Shown here: positions 2,639-52,568 of the stretch, piece after piece
Position numbering within the stretch: the stretch's first letter is position 1
How the letters are laid out: each line of letters begins with the position of its first letter
Origin: Cladochytrium replicatum
Taxonomy: Eukaryota > Chytridiomycota > Chytridiomycetes > Cladochytriales > Cladochytriaceae
NCBI GenBank assembly: GCA_025526935.1
Contig: JAHLKD010000034.1
Coordinates: 1-64,000, forward strand
Direction of reading: 5' to 3'
Length of the DNA: 64,000 bases
Translations under genes and position numbers: made by a program
Notes under the pieces: model-generated
What the model saw: the letters and a program-made list of their open reading frames with translations, nothing else
The model's database searches: none
Told to the model about the DNA's origin: nothing

Positions 2639-2740
2639 GTACCGGCTCCTGGCCCTCGCCCCCCGTCTACTCGACCTGCCCCACGTGGACCTCGTGGTCC
2701 ACGCACTTATGCCGCTGCTGCTGCCAATGCCCGTGCCCGT

Positions 2741-3358
2741 GTGCTTGAGAGTCTCCCCACACTGAGTGCTGAATCTCGTACAGAAGCTGTCAGGACTGCC
2801 CTTGCTGGTCGTGACCCCACTTCGAATGTCAGCCTTCGTGGCCCTCGGCCTGTCGTATTCTATCCTCCGACCTCTCCGCTGCTGGTCTCCCCACCTGCTG
2901 ATCTTCAGGCCCGTGTGGATGATTTGACCACTGTGTACATCAAGGACATCATGAGACAGCGGCTCGGCTTTGTGCGGACCATGCTGAGGGCTCTCTTGGG
3001 CGATGAGGTGGTGCGTGGTATCCGCCACATCAGTTTCGTTGGTCGCAACATTGCTTCCTTTATCTGTATTCGCTCAACCGCAATTGCTCTCCGTGCGCAC
3101 TTCTCCACCCAGGAAGCTTCCACTGACGAATCAAACCCTGACTTTCTTCGCCGAGCCTCTACTCTGCCTTTGGAGCAGCGGGAGGCTGCGGTCAGGGAAG
3201 TTGTTCACAAGAGATATGCACATATCCTCAGTTCAGTTACTGATCCTGCTATTTTCCTGTATGTCCGTGGTCAGCTCCCCATGGATGCTCAGGAAACTGT
3301 GCTGGACAGTGCCCGCGGGATTGCGCGTCAGCCTCGCTCAACCCATCTTCGTCAATGA
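2741..3358 (+). CDS. LINE-B ORF1 protein (5'-truncated), left copy
   Basis: Open frame of about 205 residues upstream of the endonuclease/RT ORF, in the position of a LINE ORF1 nucleic-acid-binding protein. No zinc knuckle is visible. The frame stays open upstream to the tRNA junction (about 2642), so the true N-terminus is missing; no ATG is seen before residue ~70. The stop TGA (3356-3358) overlaps the ORF2 start ATG (3355-3357) as ATGA, suggesting stop-restart translation of ORF2. The sequence is nearly identical in the right copy (20633-21253). Confidence 0.75.
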   Translation: MLESLPTLSAESRTEAVRTALAGRDPTSNVSLRGPRPVVFYPPTSPLLVSPPADLQARVDDLTTVYIKDIMRQRLGFVRTMLRALLGDEVVRGIRHISFVGRNIASFICIRSTAIALRAHFSTQEASTDESNPDFLRRASTLPLEQREAAVREVVHKRYAHILSSVTDPAIFLYVRGQLPMDAQETVLDSARGIARQPRSTHLRQ

Positions 3359-6300
3359 TTAGTGTTCGAGTTGGTACCTTCAATTGTCGCAATTTGAGCT
3401 TTGGAGTTCTTGATTCACTGTTTCGTTTTATGCGCGCAAATCACATTGTTTTTCTGCTCCTGACTGAAACACACCTTTTTCCTTTAGACCCGCTGCCTTC
3501 TCCAGATTTGATTTTTGACACTCGTTTTTCTCCTGGGTCATCGGGCACACGACGGGCTGGTGTGGGAGTCTTGATCAATCGCAGTCTTTGTAGAGCTTCT
3601 GATTTCCGTCTCGTTTCTAGTTATGGTGGCACCTCTCTATGGTTTACATTTCGTGGGCTTTTGGTTGGAGGGTATTATTTGCCTCCGTGTGGTATTGCTC
3701 AGGACCCCTTCCTTGAAGAGTTTATTGCTTCACTTCCTCAACATGTCCCGTCGTCTCCGTGCCCTGTTCTTTTGTTGGGCGATTTCAATGCCCGTTTTTT
3801 AGCTACTGGTGATCATTCTTCAAATCGTAGGGGTAGGTTGTTTGAGCAATTTATTTCTGCCGCTAGTTTCTCTCTAGTTAAGCACCCTTCCTGTCATAAC
3901 CCCACATTTTCTTCTCGCAATGGTGACTCCATTATCGATTTGTTGTTTGTCAATCCTCTGCTTCAATGTGATCCTATTTCTTACATAGTTCATAGTCGTC
4001 TAGCCGACGGCGAGTTTATGCCTTGGGCTTCTGACCATTTTCCGGTTACAGCTGTTTTTTCTTTTGCTCCTCCCAATGCCAGCGCTCCCTCTGCTGCTCC
4101 CCCCCACAAGCGCTGGGCTGCTCATCTGTTGCGTGAACCTGCTGTCTTTCAAGCAATGGAGAATGTGGGACATTTGTTTTTTGATCCCACCCTTGCTGAT
4201 GTCAATGCTGCACTCAGTCCAATTTTAGAAGCTCCCGCCTTTGCCCAAATGTCTGTGGATGTTGCACAGGGATGTATTGACTCTGCATTGGATATTATTT
4301 TGTCCTTTGTTACTTCATGTGCTGCTTGTGTCATTGGACCCCCCAGTTTAGTTCGCCGTCGCCCTGCCCTGCCATTGTTGCCGCCGCATTTAGTGGCCTT
4401 GCGACGGAGCTACTTACTTGCTCATAAGCACTATTTAGCTGTTTCTTCCTGTGATGATCCTGATCCTGGTTTAGTTGAGTATTGCCGCTTGGAGCGTGAC
4501 CGGCTATCGCGTGAGCGTGTCAAAGCTTTTCGTACTTGGTCTCTTTCTCAGCGAGCTCGAGATGCTTCTGGCGACAATATGTTTAGTTCTTCTCCTAGTT
4601 CTTTAACCGAGGTTAGCAAAGTTCTTTCCACCGCGCGTAGGTGTCATCAACGGCGCTCAGCTGCAAGTGGTTTATTGTCTGATCCTGCCTCTTTATCTCA
4701 TTATCGCAATCACTTTGCCTCCGTTTATCAGACTCAGTTTGCACAATCCTCTGCCAGTGCAGAACACTTTCGTCTACATGCGCTGAATGATTCTGTGTCA
4801 GTTAGTGTTAGTGACTTTGTTTGTGCTATTCGTTCTTCCCCAAACAACTCTGCTCCTGGCTCAAACCATATTCCAGCTGAGTTATTTAAGCCGTTAGCTT
4901 CTGATGTTGCTATTCTTTTGTTCAACTTTCAAACGCTATTTTCCGTTCAGGTTTGTCGCCCTCTGCCTGGAATGCTGGCTTGTTGTTACCTGTTTGGAAG
5001 AATAAGGGCTCCATTGGTGATATTAGTCAGTACCGCCCCATTACTTTAACCAATGTTGATAGAAAAATCTTTGAGCGTACCCTGCTTCCTATGCTGCTTA
5101 TGTTGGTAAACCTGATCACGCCCAAGCTGGTTTCCAGGCCAATCGTTCAGGTGTTGAGTGTGTTTTTGCATTAGATGCTACCCTTCGACGAGCTTCCTGC
5201 ACTGCTCTGCCTTATTGTGTTACTTTCTTAGATATTAAAGCAGCGTATGATACTGTGCATAGGCCTCTTTTGTGGGAACGTCTTCGTCAATTTCCCAGAA
5301 TTCCAAACCGTTTGATCTCTGTTTTGATGAGTATGTTTGATCGTTGTTCTTCTCAGGTTGTTATAGAGAATCGTTCTTCTGATTTGTTTTCGCTTCCACG
5401 AGGTCTTTTTCAAGGTTCTGTTTTGTCTCCGTTCTTGTACTCAGTTTTCATCAATCCTTTAGCACAGCTCCTTCGTTGTGAATCCTCTCATCTTGCTAGG
5501 TTTTCTTATAACACTCCTGTTTTCAATTCGTTGTTTTTTGCTGATGACATAGCTTTGTTTTCTGCCACCCCTGAGCAGGCCCAACGTGCATTGAAAATTT
5601 GTGAAGATATTGCTTTAGCTTCTCATTTTGTGTTTTCACCTTCAAAGTGTGCTGTGTTATCTTCTCAACGGCTACCCACCCCCTTGAAGCTTCATGGCTC
5701 TGCCCTCCCTGTAGAGGTTTCATTTAGATACCTTGGTCACTATTTTACTATTGAAGGGTTTGATCTTGCTGCAACTATTGATCATCGCTTAGAGAAAGCT
5801 CGTGCCTCATTGTATCTTTTTGCACCTTATGTCTCGTACTTTGGTGGGTCTGCTCCTCGTGTTGCCAGGTTGTTGTTTTTGTCTTTTATTAGACCTTCAC
5901 TTGAGTTTGGTTTAGCACTTATTCGGCCTTCCACTGCTCAGCTTCAGGTACTCGAGCGTTTTTGTTATCATGCACTGTGTCGTCTGTTTTCGATAGCCCA
6001 TACCACTTCGCGTGTTGGTTTGTTGCTGTTAGCGCAAATTCCTACTTTTGAGTTCAGGCTGAAGTACCTTCAGGCACGTATGTTTGCTCGCTGGTCTAGT
6101 GATTCCAGCCCTCTGTTACCAGCTGCTGTGTTGCAATTCTATCGGTCATCTCCAGTCGGTTATGGTTCATCTCCTTATTTTTCCGCTTGTCACAATGATC
6201 TCATTGTTCCTATGCCTGTTGTGCTCCCACTTCATCTGTTGATGTTGCATTTTCAGTCTTTAGCTGTTGCGCATAATGGACCAATTGCAGTTTCGTTTGC

Positions 6301-6727
6301 CCCTGTCCGCAATTTGAAACTTTGCCACCCTTTGTTGCTACCCCCACGCCAACATCTCCCAACAGTATGTCTTCGTTTGTTCCTGCTATATCGGCTTGGC
6401 CGCCTGTTTCCAAACCCCCGACCTTATTGTAGGAACTGTCATGATGCCCCTGAAGTGTCGTGTGCCCATGTCTCTGTGTGTCTACATTTGCGTGCTAGTT
6501 TGTCTGCTAGTTTTGATTTGGGCCTGCCTGATGATCCCCGCTTACCTCTTGACATTGCAATTGATCAGCTATCACACGGCCTTTTTATCCTTCCCCTGCT
6601 TTTTCCCAGTGGGTTCTTGTTCTTCGTGCACTTAACCGCATTTGGTCAAACTGTCTGGTTATGACCTAGTTTTGTCTCCCGCTCCTGATTCTATCTTGTC
6701 TGCTGTTGTTGATTTGGATATACGTTA
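3355..6727 (+). pseudogene. LINE-B ORF2 endonuclease-reverse transcriptase, frameshifted
   Basis: The N-terminal part (3355 to about 4050) is an apurinic-type endonuclease: GTFNCRNL start, TETH, LLLGDFNAR and ASDHFPV motifs are visible. The reverse transcriptase follows with SPNNSAPGSNHIPAELF, RPITLTN, GLFQGSVLSP and FADDIALF (about 5535), then a C-terminal CRNC...C zinc-knuckle-like segment near 6430. One T is missing near 4920 relative to the right copy, a further indel lies at 5090-5100, and the C-terminus shifts frame near 6560-6600. The protein cannot be made whole from this copy. Confidence 0.88.
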
Positions 6728-6875
6728 GTGTTATGAAACATTTTACATTTCCTATGGCTCGCACGGCTCCCCATGTGCTGCCAATTTACGTGTATTTGCT
6801 TGTATTTGGATTTTGCACCAGCGGGTGATATGTCTTGGTTGGACAATAAATACATATTATGAAGTCCAAAAAAAG

Positions 6876-17092: not shown

Positions 17093-17257
17093 TTTTTTTT
17101 TTTTTTTTTTTTTTGAACTTCATAATATGTATTTATTGTCCAACCAATACATATCACCCGCTGGTGCAAAATCCAAATACAAGTGTAAAAACACACGTAA
17201 ATTGGCAGCACATGGGGAGCCGTGCGAGCCGCAGGAAAAGTAAAATGTTTCAAAACA

Positions 17258-20200
17258 CTAAGGCATATCCAAATCAACAAAAGCAGACAAGATACAATCA
17301 GGAGCTGGAGACAAAACTAACTCATAACCAAGACAGTTTGACCAAATGCGGTTAAGTGCACGAAGAACAAGAACCCACTGGGAAAAAGCAGGGGAAGGAT
17401 AAAAAGGCCATGGTGAAAGCATATCAATTGCAATGTCAAGCGGTAGGCGGGGATCGTCAGGCGGGCCTAAATCAAAACTAGCAGACAAACTAGCACGCAA
17501 ATGTAGACACACAGAGACATGGGCACACGACACTTCAGGGGCATCATGACAGTTCCTACAATAAGGTCGGGGGTTTGGAAACAGGCGGCCAAGCCGATAT
17601 AGCAGGAACAAACGAAGACATACTGTTGGGAGATGTTGGCGTGGGGGTAGCAACAAAGGGTGGCGAAGTTTCAAATTGCGGACAGGGGCAAACGAAACTG
17701 CAATTGGTCCATTATGCGCAACAGCTAAAGACTGAAAATGCAACATCAACAGATGAAGTGGGAGCACAACAGGCATAGGAACAATGAGATCATTGTGACA
17801 AGCGGAAAAATAAGGAGATGAACCATAACCGACTGGAGATGACCGATAGAATTGCAACACAGCAGCTGGTAGCAGAGGGCTGGAATCACTAGACCAGCGA
17901 GCAAACATACGTGCCTGAAGGTACTTCAGCCTGAACTCAAAAGTAGGAATTTGCGCTAACAGCAACAAACCAACACGCGAAGTGGTATGGGCTATCGAAA
18001 ACAGACGACACAGTGCATGATAACAAAAACGCTCGAGTACCTGAAGCTGAGCAGTGGAAGGCCGAATAAGTGCTAAACCAAACTCAAGTGAAGGTCTAAT
18101 AAAAGACAAAAACAACAACCTGGCAACACGAGGAGCAGACCCACCAAAGTACGAGACATAAGGTGCAAAAAGATACAATGAGGCACGAGCTTTCTCTAAG
18201 CGATGATCAATAGTTGCAGCAAGATCAAACCCTTCAATAGTAAAATAGTGACCAAGGTATCTAAATGAAACCTCTACAGGGAGGGCAGAGCCATGAAGCT
18301 TCAAGGGGGTGGGTAACCGTTGAGAAGATAACACAGCACACTTTGAAGGTGAAAACACAAAATGAGAAGCTAAAGCAAAATCTTCACAAATTTTCAATGC
18401 ACGTTGGGCTTGCTCAGGGGTGGCAGAAAACAAAGCTATGTCATCAGCAAAAAACAATGAATCGAAAACAGGAGTGTTATAAGAAAACCTAGCAAGATGA
18501 GAGGATTCACGACGAAGGAGCTGTGCTAAAGGATTGATGAAAACTGAGTACAAGAACGGAGACAAAACAGAACCTTGAAAAAGACCTCGTGGAAGCGAAA
18601 ACAAATCAGAAGAACGATTCTCTATAACAACCTGAGAAGAACAACGATCAAACATACTCATCAAAACAGAGATCAAACGGTTTGGAATTCTGGGAAATTG
18701 ACGAAGACGTTCCCACAAAAGAGGCCTATGCACAGTATCATACGCTGCTTTAATATCTAAGAAAGTAACACAATAAGGCAGAGCAGTGCGGGAAGCCCGT
18801 CGAAGGGTAGCATCTAATGCAAAAACACACTCAACACCTGAACGATTGGCCTGGAAACCAGCTTGGGCGGGATCAAGTTTACCAACATGAGCTACAAGCA
18901 TAGGAAGCAGGGTACGCTCAAAGATTTTTCTATCAACATTGGTTAAAGTAATGGGGCGGTACTGACTAATATCACCAATGGAACCCTTATTCTTCCAAAC
19001 AGGTAACAACAAGCCAGCATTCCAGGCAGAGGGCGACAAACCTGAACGGAAAATAGCGTTTGAAAGTTGAACAAAAAGGATAGCAACATCAGAAGCTAAC
19101 GGCTTAAATAACTCAGCTGGAATATGGTTTGAGCCAGGAGCAGAGTTGTTTGGGGAAGAACGAATAGCACAAACAAAGTCACTAACACTAACTGACACAG
19201 AATCATTCAGCGCATGTAGACGAACGTGTTCTGCACTGGCAGAGGATTGTGCAAACTGAGTCTGATAAACGGAGGCAAAGTGATTGCGATAATGAGATAA
19301 AGAGGCAGGATCAGACAATAAACCACTTGCAGCTGAGCGCCGTTGATGACACCTACGCGCGGTGGAAAGAACTTTGCTAACCTCGGTTAAAGAACTAGGA
19401 GAAGAACTAAAATATTGTCGCCAGAAGCCTCTCGAGCTCGCTGAGAAAGAGACCAAGTACGAAAAGCTTTGACACGCTCACGCGATAGCCGGTCACGCTC
19501 CAAGCGGCAATACTCAACTAAACCAGGATCAGGATCATCACAGGAAGAAACAGCTAAATAGTGCTTATGAGCAAGTAAGTAGCTCCGTCGCAAGGCCACT
19601 AAATGCGGCGGCAACAATGGCAGGGCAGGGCGACGGCGAACTAAACTGGGGGGTCCAATGACACAAGCAGCACATGAAGTAACAAAGGACAAATAATATC
19701 CAATGCAGAGTCAATACATCCCTGTGCAACATCCACAGACATTTGGGCAAAGGCGGGAGCTTCTAAAATTGGACTGAGTGCAGCATTGACATCAGCAAGG
19801 GTGGGATCAAAAAACAAATGTCCCACATCCTCCATTGCTTGAAAGACAGCAGGTTCACGCAACAGATGAGCAGCCCAGCGCTTGTGGGGGGGAGCAGCAG
19901 AGGGAGCGCTGGCATTGGGAGGAGCAAAAGAAAAAACAGCTGTAACCGGAAAATGGTCAGAAGCCCAAGGCATAAACTCGCCGTCGGCTAGACGACTATG
20001 AACTATGTAAGAAATAGGATCACATTGAAGCAGAGGATTGACAAACAACAAATCGATAATGGAGTCACCACTGCGAGAAGAAAATGTGGGGTTATGACAG
20101 GAAGGGTGCTTAACTAGAAAGAAACTAGCGGCAGAAATAAATTGCTCAAACAACCTACCCCTACGATTTGAAGAATGATCACCAGTAGCTAAAAAACGGG

Positions 20201-46296: not shown

Positions 46297-47783
46297 TCAC
46301 GGCAAAGGTTCCTCGCTGTCACTCAGCCTGGACAGATGCAAGTAAGCATCAGTCCCGTAACCCTCCATGCTGATAAGGCGAAGATCGCCGCCAAAGTAGC
46401 GTGCATAGAGTCGGCTGAGAGGCAAACCGTATCCGAATCTACAAAATAGTTCCCACATTAGATCATATACTCCAATGGTCACGGCGAGTACTAACCCAGC
46501 AAGCGGTGCCTTGAAATCGCTCTTATTGAAATCATCTTCGATGGCTGGTCGTTCAGCAGTGGTGTACATGTACGTCCAAATCAACGGCATCCCTCTCCTG
46601 GGAATTCCACCCCCCTCGTCCGAGATCTTGATTGTCAGATCCTCCTTCCCGGCCGCCACCACCATCTTAATCTCCGGCCACTCATCCTTGTCGTCTCCGA
46701 ACCTCTCCACGACCGCACGCAGCGAGTTCTTAAGCAGCTCAAACAGCATATGGTGCAAATGGCTCGGCACGTATGCAAACTCGACGTCGTCGTCGCCGGG
46801 AAAGATGAGGCGCACCTCGGGGCCACCCCAGAGGCCGTAGTGGTCCGCGCAGATGTACCGCGCATTGTCGACGGCCTCCTGCGCGACTTTGCGGACGCTG
46901 GTGCGGGTGCAGATGATGCCAACGTAGTCGGGGGGCGTGGAGGACTCGGGACGCGCGAGGGCGACGTGTTGGCCGATGAGCATGCGGATGCCGATGCGGG
47001 ACATGTAGAAGCGGTCGAGGAAGGATTGGATTGCGGAGGGGAGGGGGAGGTGGTGGGCTGTGTGGGGGTCTTTGTAGAGCGGGGAGTGCGTCATGCGCCA
47101 GTGTTCTTTCACCTCCATCACACCCTGGGCTGGTGGAAATCATGTATATATGTCAGTCAGGTTTGTGACGACGGTTGACGGCATACCCATGGTTGTGACG
47201 ACGGGATCGTGACGTCGTTTGATGGCTTCGATCAGTTTCACAAACTTTTCGTTGTATGCCTGGACTTCTGGATACGAGTCGCTGACATTGGACGGGCGGT
47301 AAAATCTGACGGCTGAAGATGCAAACAAATCAAAACCTCGGTCCTCAAGCGCCAGAGTTTATCACTCACGGGAATCTGTCATGCGAACGGGCGCCTCTCC
47401 TTTCCGATGGTCCAAAGCCGCTGTCGGCACCCCGAATTCGGTCGGGGAAGGAAATTCTGTGAGCTCGGCAAAACTCTGAATGTACCACCTCTTCACCCTA
47501 TCCACCGACGGCATCTCGCTCAGTCCATGCGGAAGATTCTCGAGCTCCACGACACGGTGAGCAAGCCGGATCGGTAACTCCTGATGCATGAACTGAGTCC
47601 CCGACAGCAATGTCGCTTGATTTCTGTTCCGTCCTGCGAAAAGAAACCAATTGGGTGTTAGATGAATATAGACGTCAATAATGGGAACATACCGAAATCG
47701 ACCATGTACTTTAGTGACACAGGCGTCTGTGGAAACGACGCAAAGTGCTTGACTTTCTCCATGATGACCCTACTGTTGGCCAT
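46297..47783 (-). CDS. Pyruvate dehydrogenase kinase, mitochondrial
   Basis: GHKL-type protein kinase that phosphorylates and inactivates E1-alpha of the mitochondrial PDH complex (or the related branched-chain complex). Exons 47783-47693, 47633-47370, 47312-47187, 47129-46496, 46438-46297 give 418 residues. The N-terminal helical regulatory domain (ASFPQTPVSLKYMVDFGRN, QELPIRLAHRVVELENLP, DPVVTTMAQGVMEVKE) precedes the GHKL domain with N-box FELLKNSLRAVVERF, G1 box DEGGGIPR and G2 box GFGYGLPLSRLYARYFGGDL. Only the 47129 acceptor restores the canonical MAQGV. The open frame continues upstream of the chosen ATG with an Arg/Ser/Ala-rich, presequence-like stretch lacking an ATG. Confidence 0.93.
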
Positions 47784-48396: not shown

Positions 48397-50115
48397 TTAA
48401 GCAGAGAGAAGAGCGAGAGCTTGCTGCAAAGCGTCCAACACGGACTGGGCAGCAGCTGCTGAGAGGATCGCACCAGATCCGCCCGCGTCACCCGTTGCGT
48501 CATCAGCAGCATCTGCGACAACTGGGGCATCATCTTCTTCCTCGCCGTCTTCAGAATCCTCAGCAACATCCACATCGTCTGAGCTTTCGTCAGCAGAATC
48601 CTCAACGTCCTCATCTTCGTCCTCGCTGTCGTCAGCGGCGGAAGCAACGAAGCCACCTCCAACCTGACCTGCGACAGTGTTGGCAAAGTTGGTGTTGAGA
48701 CCGATCGCCTTGTTGAACGCATCGGCGGAGCTACCAGCAGTGCGAGCCTGGGCGGCGTTGAGACCCTTTCCACCACGACCTGCGAGGGAAACGGCACCAC
48801 GGCAAGCGCTGACGAGAGCGGTGTTGCCCTTGCACTGCTCGTTGATGCGATCGCAGATGAAGTTCGCGACAAGCTGGAAGTTCAAAGCACTGCCTTGACC
48901 GGTGAAGACACCGCGACCGGTAACGACGGCACGAACCTCTTGTGCGCGCTCACCGTTAGGGTCAGCACCGAGACCAACGACCAGCTGGGCGTCGTTGAGG
49001 TTGAAGCCAGCATTGCAGCCGTTGGCGTTGACTCCACCGTTGTTGCCTCCGTTGTTGCCCCCGTTGTTTCCACCGTTGTTTCCACCGTTGTTTCCACCGT
49101 TGTTGCCTCCGTTGTTTCCGCCACCGTTACCGACTTGGTTCGCGACAGTGTTGGCGAAGTTGGTGTTCAGTCCGATAGCCTTGTTGAAAGCGTCGGCAGA
49201 AGCACCGGCAGTCCGAGCCTGGGCGTTGCTGAGACCCTTACCACCGCGACCCGCCAACGAAACGGCGCCACGGCAAGCACTGACGAGAGCGGTGTTGCCC
49301 TTGCACTGCTCGTTGATGCGATCGCAGATGAAGTTGGCCACGAGCTGGAAGTTGAGTGCGCTGCCTTGGCCGGTGAAGACACCGCGACCGGTAACGACGG
49401 CACGAACCTCTTGTGCGCGCTCACCGTTAGGGTCAGCACCGAGACCAACGACCAGCTGGGCGTCGTTGAGGTTGAAGCCCGCATTGCAGCCGTTGGCATT
49501 GACTCCACCGTTGTTGCCGCCGTTGTTGCCTCCGTTGTTGCCATTGTTGTTGCCGCCGTTGTTGCCTCCGTTGTTGCCCCCGTTGTTTCCACCGTTGTTG
49601 CCGCCACCGTTGCCGACTTGGTTTGCGACCGTGTTGGCGAAGTTGGTGTTCAGTCCGATAGCCTTGTTGAAAGCGTCGGCACTTGCACCGGCAGCTCGCC
49701 CAGTGTTAGCATTGAGACCCTTCCCACCACGGCCAGCGAGGGAAACGGCACCGCGGCAGGCGCTAACGAGCGCAGTGTTGCCCTTGCACTGCTCGTTGAT
49801 GCGGTCGCAGATGAAGTTGGCAACAAGCTGGAAGTTCAGGGCACTGCCTTGACCCTTGAAAACCCCACGCCCTGTGACAACGGCACGAACCTAATGGGAA
49901 ATGATCAGACAACGATGATCTGATATCTACTAACACATAAAGTATCTCACCTCCTGGGCACGTTCACCGTTGGGGTCGGCACCAAGACCAACAACGAGCT
50001 GAGCATCGTTGATGTTGAAGCCGGCGTTGCAGCCATTTGTTTGGCGCCGGGCGAGGGGACCGGCAATAGCCGATTGTGCGAAGAGGAAAAGCGCTGCAAC
50101 GGATGCGAACTTCAT
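48397..50115 (-). CDS. Tandem-module secreted protein B (three four-Cys modules)
   Basis: I do not recognise the family. Exons 50115-49951 and 49890-48397 give 552 residues. There is a signal peptide (FASVAALFLFAQSAIAG), then a Kex2-like LARRQ site, and three near-identical modules of about 105 residues, each with cysteines in GCNAGF, FICDRINEQC and SACRGAVSLAGRGGKG. Modules are joined by NGGNNGG-type linkers; the DNA period is about 471 bp. The C-terminus is an acidic run (EDEDEDVEDSADESSDD) and ends AAAQSVLDALQQALALLSA, an amphipathic helix shared with gene A upstream. The single intron splits module 1 at the same codon as in gene A. Likely extracellular or wall-associated. Confidence 0.82.
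49483..49612 (-). repeat. Gly-Asn linker microrepeat in gene B
   Basis: A run of GGNN codons (plus-strand GTTGTTGCCNCC) linking modules; a second, similar run lies at 49018-49130. These are prone to slippage. Confidence 0.8.
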
Positions 50116-50165
50116 TGATTATCGACGGCGATTCGTTAGGAAGTTTTGCAGGGGTTGTGGCACCC

Positions 50166-50194
50166 TTTAAATAACTGGACCCTGGGGACGCCAC
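50166..50194 (-). promoter_or_regulatory. Conserved core promoter of gene B
   Basis: On the minus strand: GTGGCG..CCAGGGTCCAGTTATTTAAAG, about 51 bp upstream of the ATG. The same sequence with one-base spacing change precedes gene A (52541-52568). TATTTAAA is a TATA-like box. Confidence 0.6.
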
Positions 50195-50218
50195 ACCTGG
50201 GATTGGCCGCAGGACCCT

Positions 50219-50230
50219 AGCACATGATCT
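50219..50230 (-). promoter_or_regulatory. Shared upstream element AGATCATGTGCT, gene B
   Basis: The 12-bp block (plus strand AGCACATGATCT) occurs about 104 bp upstream of this gene's ATG and, identically, about 101 bp upstream of gene A's. It contains CANNTG. Role as a binding site is inferred from conservation. Confidence 0.5.
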
Positions 50231-50334
50231 GGGAAAATAATTCGTTCGTGATATTTGGATATGCTGTAGTTGCAAAGAAATGTAATATCATACAACCAAA
50301 AAGATGAACAGTTTATGTGAACAACACCCACTAT

Positions 50335-52486
50335 TCAAGCGGAAATAAGATCAATGGCTTGCTGAAGAATGTCAATCAGAGACTGCAATGCCGCGGCATC
50401 AAGCTGTGCTCCAGCGCCGGTATCAACACCACCACCGTTGGCGTTACCACCGCCGGTGTTGGCATTGTCACCACCATTGTTCGCGTTGTTTCCGCCATTG
50501 TTGCCTCCCGTACCGGCACCAGCGACCTCGTTCACAAGCGAAGTCTCAAAGTCGGTGTCAAGACCGATAGCCTGGTTGAAGGCGTCAGCGGACGCACCAG
50601 CAGCGCGAGCCTGGTCGGCACTAAGACCCTTTCCACCGCGCCCAGCGAGAGAAACGGCACCTCGGCAAGCGCTGACAAGTGCGGTGTTGCCCTTGCACTG
50701 CTCGTTGATGCGATCGCAGATAAAGTTTGCGACAAGCTGGAAGTTCAGAGCGCTTCCTTGGCCGGTGAAGGGAGCGTTGCCGCTGACGACGGCACGGACT
50801 TCGTTGACGCGGTCGCCGTTGGGATCAGCACCAAGTCCGACGATGAGGCGGGCGTCGTTGATGTCGAAGCCAGCGTTGCAGCCGGTCGTGTCAACACCGC
50901 CGGTGCCACCTCCGTTGTTGCCGCCGTTGTTGTTGCCTGCGCCATCACCTGTACCGTCGTCGGCACCATCATCGGCGCCATCGTCGGCACCGTCTTCAGC
51001 GCCATCATCAGCTCCACCATTGTTTCCACCAGCGACCTCGTTCACAAGCGAAGTCTCGAAGTCGGTGTCAAGACCGATAGCCTGGTTAAAAGCGTCTGCT
51101 GATGCACCAGCAGCGCGAGCCTGGTCGGCACTAAGACCCTTTCCACCACGCCCAGCGAGAGAAACGGCACCTCGGCAAGCGCTGACAAGTGCGGTGTTGC
51201 CCTTGCACTGCTCGTTGATGCGGTCACAAATGAAGTTTGCAACGAGCTGGAAGTTGAGTGCGCTTCCTTGGCCCGTGAACGGAGCGTTGCCGCTTACAAC
51301 GGCCCGGACTTCGTTGACGCGGTCGCCATTGGGATCAGCACCAAGTCCGACGATGAGGCGGGCGTCGTTGATGTTGAAGCCAGCGTTGCAGCCGGTCGTG
51401 TCAACACCGCCGGTGCCACCTCCGTTGTTGCCGCCGTTGTTGTTGCCTGCGCCATCACCTGTACCGTCGTCGGCACCATCATCGGCGCCATCGTCGGCAC
51501 CGTCTTCAGCGCCATCATCAGCTCCACCATTGTTTCCACCAGCGACCTCGTTCACAAGCGACGTCTCGAAGTCGGTGTCAAGACCGATAGCCTGGTTAAA
51601 AGCGTCTGCTGATGCACCAGCAGCGCGAGCTTGGTCGGCACTAAGGCCCTTTCCACCGCGCCCAGCGAGAGAAACGGCACCTCGGCAAGCGCTGACAAGT
51701 GCGGTGTTGCCCTTGCACTGCTCGTTGATGCGGTCACAAATGAAGTTTGCAACGAGCTGGAAGTTGAGTGCGCTTCCTTGGCCCGTGAACGGAGCGTTGC
51801 CGCTTACGACGGCCCGGACTTCGTTGATGCGGTCGCCGTTGGGGTCAGCGCCGAGACCGACGATGAGACGGGCATCGTTGATGTTGAAGCCAGCGTTGCA
51901 GCCGGTCGCATCAACACCACCGTTCCCACCGTTGTTACCGCCGCTGTTGCCATTGTTACCGCCATTGTTATCGTTGTTTCCTACGCCATTACCGACTTGG
52001 TTTGCAACCGTGTTTGCAAAGTTTGTGTTCAGACCGATAGCCTTGTTGAAAGCATCAGCAGAGGCACCGGCAGTGCGAGCTTGGTCTTCGCTGAGCCCTT
52101 TGCCACCACGACCCGCCAGTGAAACAGCGCCACGGCAAGCGCTGACGAGAGCGGTGTTGCCTTTGCACTGCTCATTGATTCGGTCGCAGATAAAGTTTGC
52201 AACGAGCTGGAAGTTGAGTGCGCTTCCTTGGCCAGTGAAGGGACCACGACCTGTAACGACAGCTCGCACCTATTTCAAACTTTTAAGACGCTGTGATCGG
52301 TACTTCTGTCAATTAATTCACCTCCTGGGCCCGTTCGCCGTCGGGATCGGCACCGAGGCCTACAACAAGCTGGGCATCATTGATGTTGAATCCAGCATCA
52401 CATCCGTTTGTTTGACGCCGAGATAAAGGGCCTGCAGCCACCGATTGTGCAATGAGAACGAGTGCTGCTACTGACGAAAACTTCAT
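50335..52486 (-). CDS. Tandem-module secreted protein A (four four-Cys modules)
   Basis: Same unrecognised family as the neighbour downstream. Exons 52486-52322 and 52269-50335 give 699 residues. There is a signal peptide (FSSVAALVLIAQSVAAG), an LSRRQ processing site, then four modules of the type NDAQLVVGLGADP, AVVTGRGPFTGQGSALNF, FICDRINEQC, SACRGAVSLAGRGGKG, GASADAFNKAIGL. The linker after module 1 is Gly/Asn-rich. Those after modules 2 and 3 are acidic (ADDGAEDGADDGADDG) and almost identical, reflecting a recent 510-bp internal duplication. The C-terminus ends AALQSLIDILQQAIDLISA as in gene B. Transcribed toward gene B, 219 bp from its start. Confidence 0.82.
50871..51890 (-). repeat. Two tandem 510-bp coding repeats in gene A
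   Basis: 50871-51380 and 51381-51890 are nearly identical (170 codons each, one module plus linker), differing by scattered substitutions. The identity of the linkers suggests recent duplication or gene conversion. Confidence 0.88.
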
Positions 52487-52540: not shown

Positions 52541-52568
52541 TTTAAATACTGGACCCTGGCAGCGCCAC
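52541..52568 (-). promoter_or_regulatory. Conserved core promoter of gene A
   Basis: On the minus strand: GTGGCG.TGCCAGGGTCCAGTATTTAAA, about 55 bp upstream of the ATG, matching the gene B box. Confidence 0.6.

Follow-up and report, generated by a model that had tools for sequence, protein, structure and literature searches.

The window, a stretch of 64,000 nucleotides corresponding to contig C34, contains two neighbouring genes for secreted proteins built from repeats of a four-cysteine module, and this module family is genuine and undescribed in the libraries searched (Pfam, NCBIfam and PDB). The genome, which comprises 50.5 Mb in 198 contigs, was searched for the module; its size, the introns and the style of the proteins suggest a fungal host. 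By reading of the sequence, genes A and B are complete two-exon genes, both on the minus strand (Table 1). Their introns occupy the identical position, between codons 55 and 56, and a reading of gene A without splicing runs into a stop inside the intron. Each protein begins with a putative secretion leader, and its sole KR/RR pair is the RR at residues 23-24, followed by Gln, a possible Kex2-type cleavage site. The adjacent minus-strand pair with leader, RRQ and same-codon intron, proposed in an earlier note on this DNA, is thereby confirmed. In the promoters of both genes CCAGGGTCCAG is located directly ahead of TATTTAAA, and a similar block precedes D, the partner of gene B on contig C123 (see below). 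A sequence scan detected no N-glycosylation sequon N-x-S/T in A, B or D. The minus-strand exon adjoining the gene pair (46297-47139) matches the mitochondrial branched-chain ketoacid dehydrogenase kinase (PF10436) and HATPase_c.

Table 1. Features of genes A and B, numbered on the window.
Feature	Position	Strand	Remarks
Gene A	50335..52486	-	699 aa, 4 modules; splice model
Gene A exon 1	52486-52322	-	
Gene A intron	52321-52270	-	52 nt
Gene A exon 2	52269-50335	-	
Gene A promoter block	52541..52559	-	CCAGGGTCCAG-TATTTAAA
Gene A secretion leader	52433..52486	-	about residues 1-18; reading and hydropathy
Gene A RRQ	52412..52420	-	residues 23-25; possible Kex2-type cut, cleavage inferred
Module A1	52012..52405	-	residues 28-141, split by intron
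Module A2	51562..51903	-	residues 178-291
Linker A2-A3	51394..51561	-	acidic, net -13
Module A3	51052..51393	-	residues 348-461
Linker A3-A4	50884-51051	-	net -13, composition as A2-A3
Module A4	50542..50883	-	residues 518-631
Gene A C-terminal segment	50338..50403	-	22 aa
Gene B	48397..50115	-	552 aa, 3 modules; splice model
Gene B exon 1	50115-49951	-	
Gene B intron	49950-49891	-	60 nt
Gene B exon 2	49890-48397	-	
Gene B promoter block	50166..50185	-	CCAGGGTCCAG-T-TATTTAAA
Gene B secretion leader	50062..50115	-	about residues 1-18; reading and hydropathy
Gene B RRQ	50041..50049	-	residues 23-25; possible Kex2-type cut, cleavage inferred
Module B1	49633..50034	-	residues 28-141, split by intron
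Module B2	49150..49491	-	residues 189-302
Module B3	48679..49020	-	residues 346-459
Gene B acidic stretch	48466..48678	-	71 aa, net -28, ahead of last segment
Gene B C-terminal segment	48400..48465	-	22 aa

The module measures exactly 114 residues in the seven copies, and not about 105 as formerly estimated; the four and three copies with a fixed cysteine pattern are as described, since all seven contain one earlier cysteine followed by C-x6-C-x9-C. Over a stretch of 40 residues the core residues are invariant in the seven window modules, and they are partly kept in distant relatives. Tandem Repeats Finder detected the 471-nt unit of gene B with a score of 1783; the longest period being 500, the 510-nt unit of gene A would be missed. 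The linkers of A and B are rich in Gly and Asn and partly acidic. In gene A the first linker is near-neutral (net -2) and the second and third are acidic; in gene B both inter-module linkers are neutral (net 0) and the acidic stretch lies ahead of the last segment. The neutral and acidic chemistries previously assigned to one gene each both exist, but each gene has both. The C-terminal segments of A and B are alike, their alignment score being reached by 0/2000 shuffles. The amphipathic helix claimed for them fared less well: the amphipathic character is weak (shuffle P of 0.039 in A and 0.055 in B) and the hydrophobic moment is marginal in all eight forms tested (P 0.04-0.16).

The earlier note had read the two genes as a tandem-pair system. 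The module is not confined to the pair: it was found in other genes of the same genome, in at least four architectures. The gene models of these relatives were made by hand. On C123, D is intact and contains four modules in 731 residues. It has no RR site and its leader continues straight into QTNGC; the gene start (L031, 4053-4110) lacks an RR pro-segment, yet it would expose the same QTNGC as in A and B. Two processing routes, one in A and B and the other in D, may lead to one mature end. Three proteins of 376-392 residues (two on C1, one on C4) begin with a different domain, which an Asn/Gly linker connects to one C-terminal module. On C43, a protein of 406 residues has a single module together with an extended tail rich in Ser and Thr. 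On C76, the gene of a 538-residue protein with two diverged modules is located beside a second gene with one module. A broken stretch resembling this second gene, with stops present (L054, C147:17000-20000), looks like its decayed counterpart.

The comparison of these proteins with the four-cysteine module by hhalign gave 99.7% for the C1/C4 group, 97.3% for C43 and 95.8% for C76, and the column-shuffled controls were all (36/36) at 4.2% or less; the direct comparison of C43 with C76 was weaker (74.8%). At the level of sequence, this supports a shared descent of the C1/C4, C43 and C76 modules with the module of A and B. The spacing C-x6-C-x9-C is kept in the C1/C4 group (3/3) and in C43, and the C76 modules have the four cysteines but not the spacing. 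In an alignment of eight modules, three cysteines and a D-x-F-N close to the end are among the positions that never vary. Secretion leaders were recognised by hydropathy and reading in A, B, D and the six other relatives' models scanned.

The domain at the N-terminus of the C1/C4 proteins (C1:52k, C1:1234k and C4:577k), a candidate for the domain typical of secreted fungal proteins that bear the label 'ribosomal protein s17', matched nothing in Pfam or PDB. It is present at seven loci, where, according to reading frames and models, it is combined with the module (3/7), with an Asn/Gly linker and a gene-A-like segment AALQ...DIL.QA..L (C14 and C38), or with Ser/Thr-rich tails (C113 and C5). The C-terminal segment of gene A has its likeness in B, in D and in these C14 and C38 proteins: between A and C38, 10 of 17 aligned residues are identical and 0/2000 shuffles score as high, and the likeness of A to C14 is also beyond 2000 shuffles. 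Among 28 pairs of segments, three (B-C76_2, D-C76_2 and D-C76_1) are not significantly more similar than shuffled sequences (P 0.13-0.37). A scan with the core DIL.QA gave 40 matches, against 15 in the reversed control; four are known members (A, its decayed counterpart, C14 and C38) and the other 36 are unread, so that 40 is no count of the spread of the segment.

Around the gene pair, C123 is collinear with the window, with 73-88% DNA identity in the longer blocks. The collinear span covers 40.8-56.0 kb of the window and C123:105.5-119.7 kb. Contrary to gene B, gene A is represented on C123 by a stretch of one module that has decayed and is interrupted by stops and frame breaks, and A may therefore be dispensable. 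The reading of the C123 copy as an allele was judged unlikely, with dS of 0.61-1.29 over 12 B-D module pairs and of 0.51, 0.38, 0.62 and 0.77 in four other gene pairs; the first two values are those of the eEF1A pair (277 codons) and of the adjacent kinase pair (278 codons), and a further estimate (0.000, 95 codons) was left out because it came from an antisense frame. The four gene pairs and the modules rather suggest old duplicates or two subgenomes. The gene pairs with dS of about 0.4-0.8, eEF1A included, come from the window and C123, C1:1233k and C4:577k, C72 and C7, and C149 and C49. As a whole, these sequence comparisons suggest that the genome is duplicated or hybrid and that part of it has been lost. 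The window also contains repeats: a 4.2 kb stretch (2645-6874) recurs on 7 other contigs in 8 near-full-length copies of 98-99% identity, and a portion of it lies inverted at 17095-20000. A dispersed repeat at 37.2-38.9 kb represents most of the 61 matches to 30-48 kb of the window, on many contigs with 73-93% identity.

Together, A, B and D have 11 modules, which were compared in 55 pairs. The dN/dS ratio is comprised between 0.013 and 0.171 in all of them, with dN of at most 0.132 and identity of 80-99%, and 48 pairs reach a dS of 0.6 (values above 2, found in some pairs, are saturated and only a rough figure). Low ratios at mostly high dS indicate that genes A and B are real and that the likeness of the modules is held by purifying selection. 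The seven pairs with dS below 0.6 (0.15-0.42) are exactly those within A2-A4, B2-B3 and D2-D4; the inner modules are recent copies and the first modules are old. Growth by module duplication, as formerly proposed, agrees with this distribution, and the modules are indeed near-identical, but recent duplication explains this only in part, most of it being due to long purifying selection. The largest ratio is that of A4 and B3, whose dS (0.62), below that of A4 and A1 (1.53), may reflect exchange between the two genes. The codon bias toward eEF1A is of 0.475 for B, 0.409 for A and 0.466 for D; it is of 0.339 in the exon of a neighbouring kinase, the single neighbouring gene compared, and of 0.231 on average in neutral recodings of B. 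This raised bias of A and B fits good expression.

Pfam was searched with both exons of A, with exon 2 of B and with the domains of the relatives, and no profile came near a cut-off, those of the secreted families covered by Pfam (hydrophobin, CFEM, cerato-platanin and LysM among them) included. NCBIfam, searched with exon 2, and the PDB sequences (best E 0.39) contained no relative either, in agreement with the earlier view that no described family has this pattern. The best hit of a profile search of PDB, ribosomal protein S3 (E 0.027), was taken as chance. Pattern matches were found in viral contigs (19) and in a prokaryotic genome collection (298), none of which was confirmed as a relative. 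The AlphaFold prediction suggested by the earlier note yielded a poor model (pLDDT 48.5, pTM 0.37) with a hairpin and three helices, for which Foldseek returned 0 matches at E <= 0.001. A description of the module was not found in the literature with broad search terms, fungal hypothetical proteins being rarely described by sequence. It is likely that fungal databases already hold the module as unnamed proteins. The multi-module secreted repeat plan is itself an already known kind of protein. Rsp3 and BAD1 are other repetitive secreted fungal proteins with a tandem repeat plan.

Our leading, tentative reading is that A and B are 'beads on a string' proteins, secreted and multivalent, that belong to the cell surface or matrix and are attached non-covalently. 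The leader would send A, B and D out of the cell. A Kex2-type protease would cut A and B after RR to leave a Gln start and, as the leader of D ends directly ahead of QTNGC, the three proteins would share one mature start. Each module may form a small domain stabilised by disulfides, possibly with the hairpin and three helices of the model; disulfides joining the cysteine of helix 1 to that of helix 2, and the first cysteine to the loop cysteine, would agree with the hairpin of helices in this model, which is too poor to be relied on. The Gly/Asn-rich linkers would give a flexible spacing, the number of modules setting the valency. The target would most simply be a repetitive surface, such as a wall polysaccharide, or like proteins, bound without covalent anchor. 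The likeness of the C-terminal segment in otherwise unlike proteins leads us to infer a docking role, in which the segment would join the chains to each other or to secreted proteins with a similar segment. A surface or matrix location is favoured by the leaders, by the strong constraint on a module whose number varies (three in B, four in D), by three genes in which an Asn/Gly linker joins the module to another secreted domain, by the resemblance of the gene A segment to those of C14 and C38, whose main domain differs, and by the raised codon bias. Against it count the lack of a GPI-like tail and of PIR repeats, so that nothing points directly to the wall, as well as the missing sequons, the weak amphipathicity, the three segment pairs without significant likeness, the poor AlphaFold model, its empty Foldseek search and the decayed counterpart of A.

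That the proteins act on a host or a competitor, binding for example its surface or immune molecules with repeats that provide avidity, is rather unlikely. The proteins are secreted and cysteine-bearing, have no known domain, vary in module number and have a copy decayed on C123, all of which such a role would accommodate, and the label 'ribosomal protein s17' is applied to secreted effector candidates in PMC7441637 and PMC4039746. However, the modules are under strong purifying, not diversifying, selection, and these are long genes whose codon bias is raised, not low. The labelled domain is only a candidate in three relatives, and A and B read as devoid of it. A storage, antifreeze or stress-shield protein, in which repeats add mass and bind no specific partner, would explain the disordered Gly/Asn-rich linkers and a repeat number free to vary; it is improbable, as the invariant module core, partly kept in distant relatives, better fits a folded, specific domain.

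Two readings were rejected as very improbable. For a Kex2-processed precursor cut to single modules, tandem repeats and the RR near the N-terminus of A and B are in place, as in secreted KEPs, but no cut is marked between modules in A and B, D has no site at all, and the units are domain-sized (114 residues with conserved cysteines), whereas the repeated cores of KEPs must be flanked by Kex2 sites according to PMC9769878. Equally doubtful is a covalent attachment to the wall as in PIR or GPI proteins. In outline, A and B match the PIR plan by their leader, Kex2-like site (RRQ in A and B, absent in D), repeats and four cysteines. The Pir repeat motif occurs 0 times in the nine entries scanned (D entered twice), DGQ is absent from A, B and D, and no clear GPI-like hydrophobic tail was found, the maximum 19-residue hydropathy after residue 30 being only 1.12 in A, 1.10 in B and 1.38 in D. 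The wall linkage considered in the earlier note thus has no sign of a covalent form. Moreover, the four-cysteine fold of PIR proteins is one C-terminal domain according to PMC11657238, and the unit of A and B is repeated three to four times and is not C-terminal.

Beyond the surface or matrix reading, one fungus may possess an extracellular toolkit in which the four-cysteine module, the second secreted domain and the C-terminal docking segment, joined by Asn/Gly linkers, would be shuffled among about ten secreted proteins; the shared segment would link modular members with non-modular ones in a mixed matrix, with a valency tuned by module number. We consider this wider proposal unlikely. Fungal surfaces and matrices contain many secreted proteins without a described domain. 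The module being constrained, variable in copy number between partner genes and present in at least four architectures, solving the structure of a single module or localising a single protein would account for a whole set. If A and B prove to be ordinary wall components, they would still define a useful new domain family, but no surprise. Should the C-terminal segment prove to be a docking tag, this would provide a simple rule by which a fungus assembles a mixed extracellular layer.
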